From: Kaistella haifensis DSM 19056
GTDB lineage: Bacteria; Bacteroidota; Bacteroidia; Flavobacteriales; Weeksellaceae
DNA length: 64,000 bases
Direction of reading: 5' to 3'
Assembly (NCBI RefSeq): GCF_000735695.2
Contig: NZ_JASZ02000004.1
Coordinates: forward strand, 1-64,000
Part shown: positions 1 through 61,281 of the stretch, in pieces
Layout of the letters: each line of letters opens with the position of its first letter
Numbering within the stretch: position 1 is the first letter of the stretch
Program-made: the position numbers and the translations under genes
Notes under the pieces: model-generated
What the model saw: the letters and a program-made list of their open reading frames with translations, nothing else
What the model was told of the DNA's origin: nothing
Database searches by the model: none

Positions 1-1049
<1,049 letters not shown>

Positions 1050-1457
1050 ATTAAGGAAGATTTCAGAGAGGAATTACAAAAATATATTTCCGGAATAATT
1101 GGAAATAAAAAACACCACCTAATTTCTATCTATGCCAATCCGGATCATATTCACATCTTCTTAAGTTTAAAAGATTTATCTTCCTCCATTTCTCAGCTGG
1201 TAAAAGAAATAAAAGTTTCCTCAACAAATTTCATCAATGAAAAAAAATTCTTGGATACTCCATTTTATTGGCAAGAAGGTTATGGATGTTTTTCATATTC
1301 TAAAAGTCAAAGAGACAGTGTAGTAAATTATATTCAAAATCAGAAACAACATCATGCAAAGAAAAGTTTCAGAGAAGAGTATATAGAATTTTTGACAAAA
1401 TTTGAAGTGAATTTTGATGAAAAATATGTGTTTGAATTTTATGATAACCCCGGTTAA
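1050..1457 (+). pseudogene. IS200/RAYT-type Y1 transposase, N-terminally truncated
   Basis: Remnant of a single-strand HUH transposase of the IS200 or REP-associated type. It keeps the metal-binding His pair in NPDHIHIFLSLK and the probable nucleophile Tyr in VVNYIQNQKQHH. It ends in the usual KKSFREEYIEFL...EKYVFEF tail. Full relatives are about 150 residues; here roughly the first 15-25 residues have been replaced by the end of the neighbouring IS. A GTG at 1026 inside that IS keeps the frame open, so a hybrid protein of 143 residues is possible, but it is probably inactive. REP-like palindromes follow immediately downstream. Confidence 0.8.
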
Positions 1458-58681: not shown

Positions 58682-59692
58682 TTAGGAAACCAACAAGCTG
58701 CAACCACGAATATCAGAATGATCGATCCTGCCCAAAACCTGAAACTTCGGACTCGAAATTTCATTTTCCGAAGCCGAAAAAGCCGAAAAATCTTCCATAA
58801 TTTTCCCCAAATCTTGCGTCGCAATGAAACTACAAGAATGAATATTCGCCAAATCGATGATATTGATCGCGCCGGTTCTTCCATTTTCCACATAGGAAAA
58901 TGGATCTTCGGTATTTCTAATGAGAATCCGCTTCCAGTTGGGCGTTTCGTAAATATTTTCACCTAAAGAATACGCTTGAGAAAGCAATTCCGTCATGGAA
59001 TATTCCGAAAAAATCCGGTTAGTTCCGAAACCTTTTTGCAAAATTTTCAGCAATTCATCTTTCGTCATTTCTTCTTTTCTGCCTTTCATTCCGCCGGTTT
59101 CGATGATGAATAAATCAGGAAAATCAAGTTGTTGTGAGAACGAATCCAAAAAATCCAACAGCGCAAAAGAAACTCCAAAAAGAATGACTTTCTTATCCTT
59201 TAAATTTTGTAAAAGTTCCAATAATTCTTGATGGTTGTAAAGAAAATATCCATTTTCAGGTTTACCGGATTTTTTCATGAGAAAATCAACCATATAAATC
59301 AATGACGAATGTGGATTTTTGGAATAATTGGGCAATAATCCTAAGAAAATAAAATCTTCGGGCTTTCCGATAAATTTTGCAAAACTGTGATAAATGCTTT
59401 CTTCATACAAAGCAAAATCTGCAATAAAATGCTTGGAACGGTTCATTTGAGTAGTTCCCGAACTTTGAAAATACTGATCCGTAGAAAAATTTCGATCTAA
59501 AACCAAATGATTTTTGAACATTTCAATTGGCAAGAAAGGTATTTCGTGAATATCCTGAATTTCAGTCGAATCTATGTGCAAATAATCGCAAAATTTTCGG
59601 TAAACTTCCACATTTTCATATTGATAACGGAAAGTTTCCAAACATTTTTGTCGAAAATCTGCTTCAGTTTTTATGTTGAAAATATTATTCAA
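58682..59692 (-). CDS. LuxE-like acyl-protein synthetase/acyltransferase
   Basis: 336-residue member of the LuxE family, adenylate-forming enzymes that activate fatty acids. Conserved stretches: FLPIEMFKNHLVLD, FQSSGTTQMNRSKHF (AMP-binding-like loop), IIETGGMKGRKEEM, FSEYSMTELLSQAYS, and the C-terminal VLGRIDHSDIRGCSLLV, where the Cys is the family's likely acyl-carrying residue. No lux genes are near, so it is not for bioluminescence; in Bacteroidetes such genes are linked to surface lipids or glycans. The only in-frame start is a TTG at 59692; an in-frame stop lies just upstream. Confidence 0.85.
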   Translation of the reverse strand: MNNIFNIKTEADFRQKCLETFRYQYENVEVYRKFCDYLHIDSTEIQDIHEIPFLPIEMFKNHLVLDRNFSTDQYFQSSGTTQMNRSKHFIADFALYEESIYHSFAKFIGKPEDFIFLGLLPNYSKNPHSSLIYMVDFLMKKSGKPENGYFLYNHQELLELLQNLKDKKVILFGVSFALLDFLDSFSQQLDFPDLFIIETGGMKGRKEEMTKDELLKILQKGFGTNRIFSEYSMTELLSQAYSLGENIYETPNWKRILIRNTEDPFSYVENGRTGAINIIDLANIHSCSFIATQDLGKIMEDFSAFSASENEISSPKFQVLGRIDHSDIRGCSLLVS

Positions 59693-59707: not shown

Positions 59708-59886
59708 ATAAACACAATAACACAAAAGGTTCACAATTACTATATTCTGTTTTTATGACACGATGCAAAATGTACTTACTTAAAATTGTATTCCTTTTTT
59801 ATAGTTAATTATCAGCGCTTTTTTTCTAAACACAAAGACACAAAGGTTTCACAATTAAAACTTTCTGTTTTACGACACGACGTAAG
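59708..59886 (+). repeat. Left pair of ~62-bp repeats flanking the GxxExxY gene
   Basis: Two direct copies at 59708-59769 and 59826-59886, about 75% alike. Shared blocks in order: AAACACAA, ACACAAAGG-type, TTCACAATTA, TTCTGTTTT and GACACGA. They match the reverse complement of the right pair at 60360-60502. The pair lies between the LuxE-like start and the end of the GxxExxY gene. Confidence 0.8.
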
Positions 59887-59930
59887 CTTTTTCTGCTAGA
59901 ATTTGATAAAATTGTTTCAAAAGTTCATGA

Positions 59931-60311
59931 TTAAAGTGTTCCGTTGATGACACGCTTTACGCCATTTTTGAAAAGAAAGGTATTGAAATTGATCAATAAA
60001 CCCAATTTACAGCCACTCAGTTTTAGGTAAGTTAATAATTGTGCAAAGTGCAGATTACTAACCTCTTCGCAAGCTTTTATTTCGAGAATTAGTGAATTTT
60101 CCACCATCATATCGACTCTAAATCCGGAATCTAAAACGATTTCTTCATAGTGAAGTGGCATTGGTTTTTGCCTTTCAACAAAAATCCCTTGCTTGGTGAG
60201 TTCATAAAACAAACATTGTTCATAAGCACTTTCCAAAAGACCTGGACCAAGACTTTTATGAACCTTTAAACCTGCATCATAAACTATCCTTGATAATTCG
60301 TTTTCAGTCAT
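59931..60311 (-). CDS. GxxExxY protein (PD-(D/E)XK nuclease-like)
   Basis: 126-residue member of the GxxExxY family. The naming motif is in LGPGLLESAYEQCL. A nuclease-like core follows: the Glu of LLESAY, Asp in FRVDMMVENSL and E-x-K in LILEIKACEEV, the classic PD-(D/E)XK order. The family function is unknown. I start at the ATG at 60311 (MTENELSRIVYDAG); the longer frame begins with TTG at 60326 and is less likely. It stands alone, enclosed by a pair of ~62-bp repeats on each side in opposite orientation. Confidence 0.9.
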   Translation of the reverse strand: MTENELSRIVYDAGLKVHKSLGPGLLESAYEQCLFYELTKQGIFVERQKPMPLHYEEIVLDSGFRVDMMVENSLILEIKACEEVSNLHFAQLLTYLKLSGCKLGLLINFNTFLFKNGVKRVINGTL

Positions 60312-60359
60312 ATTAACTTGTTTCAAAAATTACTCAAAATTCGAAAAAAAATTCACAAA

Positions 60360-60502
60360 CCACTTCGTGTCATAAGATTACACAATATTCCTCGTGAAAT
60401 CTTCGTGTCTTTGTGTTTAAATATAAAACAATTTCATAAACAGCTTAGTGTCATAAAAACACATCATATTCTTCGTGAAACCTTCGTGTCTTTATGTTAA
60501 AA
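60360..60502 (-). repeat. Right pair of ~62-bp repeats flanking the GxxExxY gene
   Basis: Two copies at 60360-60422 and 60441-60502, spaced 81 bases start to start. Read on the minus strand they share AAAGACACGAAG, TTTCACGA, GAATAT and TTATGACAC, in the same order as the left pair. A 60-residue ORF over them translates the same phrase twice and is just the repeat. Confidence 0.82.
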
Positions 60503-60513
60503 TTAAAAATTCA

Positions 60514-61281
60514 TCACTCCCAAATTTTCAATTCAAAATCTTTCTGAAATTCACCATAAGTAAAGTAAGAAATCCAATCGCCAAGATTAACGTATTTTGC
60601 TTCGTTTTCATTCATTTTTAAATCCAAAACCATCGGCAAATGACGATGACCATAGACGAAATAATCAATCTTTTCATTTCGAAGTTTTTCCTTGGAATAG
60701 AGAATTAAAAATTCTTTGTCCTCACCCAAAAATGCTTTGTCTTCTTCACCGGAAATCATCTTATTTTTGGTTGAAAAATAAATGGCTACTTTCATTGCAA
60801 TATCCGGATGAAGCCACTTGAAAGCCCATTGCGCAAGCGGATTGGTAAATAATTTCTTCATCCTTTTATAACCTTTGTCGCCCGGTCCTAAACCGTCGCC
60901 GTGAGCCAAAAGGAATTTTTTTCCATTGATTTCAAAGAATTGTTTTTCGAAAAAAACTGTGCAACCAATTTCTTCTTCAAAATAGTTTTTCATCCACAAA
61001 TCATGATTTCCTACGAACATAAAAAGCTCAATTCCATCATCTTTCAATTCAGCTAATTTGCCCAAAACACGTACATATCCTTTCGGAATAACATGTTTCC
61101 ATTCATGCCAAAAATCGAACAGATCACCCATGAGAAAAAGCACCTGCGCGTCAGATTTTATTTCATCTAACCAACGGATAAATTTCTCTTCGCGGATTTT
61201 GCTTGCCTGTGGAGTTGGAGCTCCAAAATGCTGATCGGAAGCGAAATATATTTTTTTGTTCGGTTCTAATTTTATTTTCAT
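60514..61281 (-). CDS. lpxH: UDP-2,3-diacylglucosamine diphosphatase
   Basis: Metallophosphoesterase that makes lipid X in lipid A synthesis. All five motifs are visible: ASDQHFG (D-x-H), MGDLFDFW, VGNHDLW, LLAHGDGLG and YGHRHLP. Length 255 is normal. LpxH assignment rests on the GDLFDFW motif and size. A short gap separates it from the repeat pair on its 3' side. Confidence 0.9.
   Translation of the reverse strand: MKIKLEPNKKIYFASDQHFGAPTPQASKIREEKFIRWLDEIKSDAQVLFLMGDLFDFWHEWKHVIPKGYVRVLGKLAELKDDGIELFMFVGNHDLWMKNYFEEEIGCTVFFEKQFFEINGKKFLLAHGDGLGPGDKGYKRMKKLFTNPLAQWAFKWLHPDIAMKVAIYFSTKNKMISGEEDKAFLGEDKEFLILYSKEKLRNEKIDYFVYGHRHLPMVLDLKMNENEAKYVNLGDWISYFTYGEFQKDFELKIWE

Follow-up and report, generated by a model that had tools for sequence, protein, structure and literature searches.

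A gene for a 126-residue GxxExxY protein, enclosed by two pairs of an inverted repeat, raises the question of whether it forms a minimal selfish cassette, mobile as a whole, or a nuclease accompanied by its own recognition sites, the two possibilities put forward in the original prediction. The locus lies in a 64,000-nucleotide stretch of the genome of Kaistella haifensis DSM 19056 (contig NZ_JASZ02000004.1, positions 1 to 64,000), referred to here as the window. The four repeat copies, two per side and in opposite orientation on the two sides, sit where they had been placed, the full arms being somewhat longer than the ~62 bp first noted, about 80 bp each, and the GxxExxY gene is indeed the sole content between them (Table 1). 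Used as a single-copy query, each of the four arms retrieves the other three and nothing else at E<=1 in the 64-kb window, the weakest cross-match having an E of 0.76 and the left-left and right-right pairs ranging from 4e-4 to 2e-7. Pairwise identity among the arms is 64-79%, with the top values within one side. The focal repeat was found only around the focal gene, with no further occurrence beyond chance in its own 2.85-Mb genome. A partial Y1_Tnp (RAYT-type) match is located near the start of the window (1041-1343, plus strand).

Table 1. Features of the GxxExxY locus, in coordinates of the window.
Feature	Position	Strand	Remarks
Left outer arm L1	59702..59780	+	units AACACAATA / ACACAAAAGG / TTCACAA ... 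TATGACACGA
Left inner arm L2	59819..59897	+	AAACACAAAG ACACAAAGG TTTCACAA ... TTACGACACGACG
Weak partial arm (fifth stub), overlapping the 3' end of the gene	~59919..59971	+	8.5 bits, uncertain
GxxExxY gene (PF13366/TIGR04256), 126 aa, PD-(D/E)XK nuclease fold	59931..60311	-	candidate catalytic residues E27, D67, E77-x-K79
Right inner arm R1, inverted relative to L1 and L2	60348..60427	-	
Right outer arm R2, inverted	60430..60508	-	orthologue persists alone at the gene-less site of a relative (G014)
LuxE-family ligase gene	58682..59692	-	site marker outside the cassette
LpxH-like metallophosphoesterase gene	60514..61281	-	site marker outside the cassette

Judged by its profile matches, the focal protein is a plain member of the TIGR04256 GxxExxY/PF13366 family (142.3 bits against TIGR04256, cut-off 35, over residues 6-122 of 126; 138.4 bits against PF13366 (PDDEXK_3), cut-off 22, with only PF13366 matched), a family whose name describes a motif and has no function attached to it. 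The PD-(D/E)XK-type core recognized earlier from the sequence was borne out by the fold of an AlphaFold2 model (pLDDT 95) and by the D...ExK active-site residues: in an alignment of 68 sequences, E77 and K79 are invariant, and E27 and D67 are at least 90% conserved, because of which the enzyme looks catalytically intact. Structure comparison identified Cas4 as the closest fold (4ic1, Z 10.2), followed by the Holliday-junction resolvase Hjc (Z about 7), with lambda-type exonucleases and restriction-enzyme folds also resembling the model. Unlike Cas4, however, the GxxExxY protein is much smaller and its alignment contains no conserved cysteines suggestive of an Fe-S cluster, and, in contrast to the Cas4/Hjc group, the focal locus has no CRISPR or recombination neighbours; PADLOC and PHROGs yielded nothing beyond weak Cas4-like or chance matches. 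None of the known transposase chemistries (DDE, DEDD, HUH, serine or tyrosine recombinase) is indicated for the focal protein by profiles or model, and the profile search gave no match to the HUH/Y1 tyrosine transposase domain PF01797. Two other candidate systems were rejected, namely restriction-modification, as no cognate methyltransferase adjoins the nuclease gene, which has the gene for a LuxE-family ligase on one side and that for an LpxH-like phosphoesterase on the other, and Type III toxin-antitoxin (ToxIN), which expects tandem direct RNA repeats upstream only, whereas here the repeats are present on both sides and inverted.

The arrangement is by no means confined to the focal gene. 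The genome encodes six GxxExxY genes, and inverted arms, identified by eye, are present at all six, with a sequence specific to each (CCACATAG, CTCGCAGAT, GCGCAAAGGCG, CCGCAAAAGAGACAAAAG, CCACAAAAGTCACAAAAG and, for the focal gene, CACAAAGACACRAAG); the CCGCAAAAGAGACAAAAG arms are doubled on both sides, as at the focal gene. With a threshold of 14 or more for the inverted-arm alignment score, and with other intervals of the same loci as controls, matching arms were detected at 67 of 95 genes from the genus and the order, compared with 3 of 228 control intervals (Fisher p 2e-42, pseudo-replicated); counted by site, 28 of the 37 sites have at least one arm-bearing member. A further 67 genes were retrieved with a single-protein query from named genomes of many phyla (Bacteroidota, Ignavibacteria, Calditrichota, Marinimicrobia, Desulfobulbaceae, Kiritimatiellae, Patescibacteria and others), and 54% of them are flanked by arms, versus 1.1% of control intervals. 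When the searched intervals were widened to take in the gene ends, which matters because an arm may be translated as a protein tail, the fractions were 74% for the genus and order and 66% for the many phyla, against 1-2% for controls. In Sphingomonas parapaucimobilis (L404, 1483-1911, between fabD and fabG), for instance, the right arm encodes the GxxExxY C-terminal tail ...SSRLRVNQRIGG, and similar tails of database proteins are likely to be encoded by repeats as well. Roughly one quarter to one third of GxxExxY genes have no detectable arms. Repeats thus accompany these genes more often than chance across many phyla, each gene with its own version of the repeat. The original prediction would have been refuted had GxxExxY genes elsewhere never been flanked by the focal repeat and the locus been identical in all relatives; that very repeat is indeed absent from them, but a version of their own takes its place.

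The arms themselves consist of tandem units of 8-10 bp sharing a clade-specific word: the best lag is 8-10 in 155 of 206 arms, with values of 33-47% compared with about 13% in shuffled arms. In the best-populated arm type, CCGCAAAAG-AnRCAAAAG is followed, after about 20 bp, by TTCAAAAG-TTTGCAAAA, making four words in total, and two inverted arms of this type without the gene constitute a solo element of 127-136 bp, present in at least six congeners; sixteen solo elements carrying the CCGCAAAAG word span this same range of 127-136 bp. Three of the CCGCAAAAG-type solo elements and one of the CATTAAG type were folded as single-stranded DNA and form hairpins with z-scores of -3.4 to -8.7. Within the limited literature covered, no paper on an association of GxxExxY, PF13366, TIGR04256 or PDDEXK_3 with repeat words was found, and, as far as we could find, the flanking arms and solo elements of GxxExxY genes are undescribed; GxxExxY/PF13366 genes are also mentioned in papers on a haptophyte virus genome and Arctic microalgae (PMC12085832, PMC9756366).

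Solo hairpins also occur in head-to-tail arrays, with about seven to eight copies at a spacing of roughly 165-220 bp in one locus (L242; G009:C34:12500-15500) and likewise in two others (L245 and L252), which suggests slippage or local amplification. In Spirosoma fluviale (G069), a CACAGAG-type word occurs 101 times, with many of the copies arranged in compact plus/minus pairs 30-70 bp apart. The ability of the arms to form hairpins, the tandem arrays, which resemble the outcome of slippage or unequal exchange, and a fold near those of Cas4, Hjc and lambda exonuclease would all be compatible with a hairpin or cruciform nuclease that binds or trims the repeats, as Hjc/SbcCD-like housekeeping or in self-regulation at its own arms, while the repeats spread otherwise, for example, by template switching or slippage. 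We regard this as rather unlikely, given that a separate word for each clade is not expected of a generic structure-specific nuclease.

Indeed, in a tree of 95 proteins, each clade is associated with either a single word or a set of related ones. Each clade also corresponds to fixed positions on the chromosome, as 191 locus pairs, distributed over eleven sites occupied in multiple genomes, have homologous flanks on both sides, and GxxExxY copy number ranges from 0 to 11 per genome. Between different sites, arm similarity tracks protein similarity (site-level Mantel rho 0.28, p 0.0002). At the focal LpxH-LuxE site, six congeners have the gene, their proteins being 60-87% identical to one another, and other congeners lack it; one of the gene-less sites (G014) retains the orthologue of arm R2 alone, and another (G013), by reading, a repeat and a gene fragment. 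The words at this site vary by genome (CACAAAG, CACAATG, CACTAAG and CACGGAG), and the left-right arm score averages 19.2 within a locus versus 12.0 across species, that is, the two arms vary in concert between diverged orthologues at a single site. In the same genomes, identity to the focal genome is 60-68% for GxxExxY, 71-76% for LuxE and 80-88% for LpxH. Other occupants of the LpxH-LuxE gap include a RAYT-like Y1_Tnp gene, flanked by inverted palindromes rich in GC (GTCACGCCTTCGGCGTTCC) and found in G025 (L025) instead of the cassette, and, as recognized by eye, a small secreted transthyretin/hydroxyisourate-hydrolase-like ORF in loci devoid of a GxxExxY gene (L034, L039 and L041-L045).

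GxxExxY genes are vertically inherited and often lost, rather than moved. Of 72,556 plasmid records, no more than 8 gave a match, and several of these are large replicons; none of 50,697 phage records matched, and IMG/VR yielded two contigs. In a comparison of two genomes with about 93% DNA identity (G016 and G026), most of the examined solo elements are common to both, and the few that differ do so messily, with no clean empty site among them; clear target-site duplications were found neither in solo elements nor at the sites that differ between the two genomes. The fixed sites, the near-absence from plasmids and phages and the mostly shared solo elements therefore indicate that the gene is not an actively hopping cassette, and the idea of a minimal selfish cassette moving as a unit finds no support. 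The same observations bear on a more conventional scenario, in which the locus is an ordinary IS-like mobile element, with the arms as terminal inverted repeats, the GxxExxY protein as transposase and the solo elements as MITEs. This scenario would account for a gene enclosed by inverted repeats, for gene-less derivatives sharing its ends and for the variable copy number per genome, but we consider it unlikely because the clades stay at fixed syntenic sites without hopping, the few plasmid matches are mostly to large replicons and phage records contain none, arm and word vary inside one site, and no target-site duplication was recognized. Bacterial MITEs of insertion sequences are similar in that short, gene-less inverted-repeat elements share their ends with a gene-bearing form; the GxxExxY system differs from them in having no DDE, DEDD or HUH transposase, in a gene form that does not hop and in arms that hold repeated words in both halves.

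The solo elements are distributed according to the presence of the cognate gene. Among 36 congeners, the CCGCAAAAG word (CCGCAAAAGANRCAAAAG) has a median of 8 copies outside gene loci in genomes with the cognate gene and 0 in those without it (p 2e-4), the reversed-pattern control giving 0 in all 36 genomes; the respective counts are 7 and 0 for ACCATTAAGNNATTAAG, also outside gene loci, and 23 and 6 for ACCACAAARNNCACAAAR, with gene-locus hits included. The p-values for the three words (2e-4 to 3e-3) are indicative, as the 36 genomes share kinship and no phylogenetic correction was applied. Non-cognate clades display weaker associations with solo counts. In other genera, 10 of 12 genomes contain 6-101 copies of the CACAGAGNNNCACARAG word, the reversed pattern occurring 0-4 times in each genome. 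Two congeners are exceptions in that they lack the cognate gene yet carry many solo elements (G033, with 13 copies of CCGCAAAAG, and G012, with 21 hits of CACAAAAG), and perhaps represent recent gene losses. A repeat occurring widely without any GxxExxY gene would, according to the original prediction, have refuted it; gene-less hairpins do exist, but mostly in genomes that hold the cognate gene.

Such a combination of properties is reminiscent of the REPIN-RAYT systems (PMC2817692, PMC3116915, PMC8049555). In both cases, one small gene is located between inverted repeats and co-evolves with them, orthologues hold their position and are inherited vertically, essentially on chromosomes, and cognate hairpin elements lie scattered through the genome, in greater numbers where the gene is present. 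The features listed for RAYTs are flanking inverted REPs, coevolution, faster evolution than neighbouring genes and a fixed position of orthologues, and RAYT presence correlates with the number of cognate REPs (PMC2817692); apart from REPIN-RAYT, no intragenomic sequence population that is stably maintained is described as known in prokaryotes (PMC8049555). The GxxExxY genes display the features listed in PMC2817692, except for the faster rate, which is only glimpsed from the GxxExxY, LuxE and LpxH identities. By contrast, the GxxExxY enzyme is a PD-(D/E)XK nuclease, whereas RAYT is a HUH Y1 transposase; the GxxExxY arms are composed of tandem 8-10 bp words, whereas REPs are short palindromes; a single genome harbours several GxxExxY lineages with a different word for each; and copy numbers are lower, in the tens rather than hundreds. 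Accordingly, the GxxExxY system works like REPIN-RAYT but is not a member of that class, as it has neither the defining enzyme nor the palindromic repeat.

RAYTs are encoded in 30 of the 36 congeners, and one of them occupies the very same intergenic site in G025, as might be the case if the repeats were owned by another enzyme, such as a RAYT, with the GxxExxY genes merely caught between them. Nevertheless, this is highly improbable. The RAYT genes of the genus have inverted repeats at 23 of 30 by the same alignment score, but these flanks are different, classic GC-rich palindromes, and a listed word is present on both sides of only 1 of the 30 RAYTs, inside the palindrome. Moreover, six congeners are devoid of RAYT, including one (G034) with four GxxExxY genes, most of them with arms, and the words follow the GxxExxY tree. 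A RAYT as the owner of the repeats was rejected because its repeats differ and the arms persist in RAYT-less genomes; these are distinct systems that exist in parallel.

We consider it probable that the GxxExxY gene and its arms represent a system of two parts, enzyme and repeats, that resembles REPIN-RAYT in type but has an unrelated enzyme, whereby the nuclease would copy, move or maintain the elements that bear its word. Under this proposal, a chromosomal, vertically inherited PD-(D/E)XK nuclease would recognize a short word recurring every 8-10 bp in the arms; two inverted arms, when single-stranded, can fold into a long hairpin, and the same arms without the gene make up the solo elements of 100-190 bp. 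The nuclease would most likely nick or process the hairpins, resulting in the copying, movement or maintenance of elements carrying its word, and as the word specificity of the protein drifts, the arms and solo elements would drift along. We infer binding and cleavage of the repeats and the copying or spreading of the elements, and the same applies to any benefit for the host. The notion of a nuclease with its own recognition sites gains indirect support from arms occurring above chance, words distributed along the protein phylogeny and solo elements tracking the gene, recognition itself remaining a matter of interpretation. Several observations count against the proposal: neither a clean empty site nor a target-site duplication was found, G033 and G012 hold many solo elements but no cognate gene, a substantial minority of GxxExxY genes show no arms, and the word of the focal gene has no solo copies in its own genome.

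In a broader perspective, it appears about equally balanced whether or not GxxExxY proteins founded a class of their own, made up of domesticated 'repeat-keeping' systems that are bound to the chromosome and very widespread, extending from Bacteroidota to Patescibacteria, in which the nuclease would read a 6-8 bp word along the hairpin arms and propagate or maintain the elements, with the word evolving together with the protein. If so, the clade-specific words would provide a natural series of nuclease-word specificity pairs. The association offers a testable job for the widespread GxxExxY/PDDEXK_3 family, known only by its motif, explains the short repeats that surround GxxExxY genes across phyla, and places a non-homologous second case beside REPIN-RAYT as a way of life.
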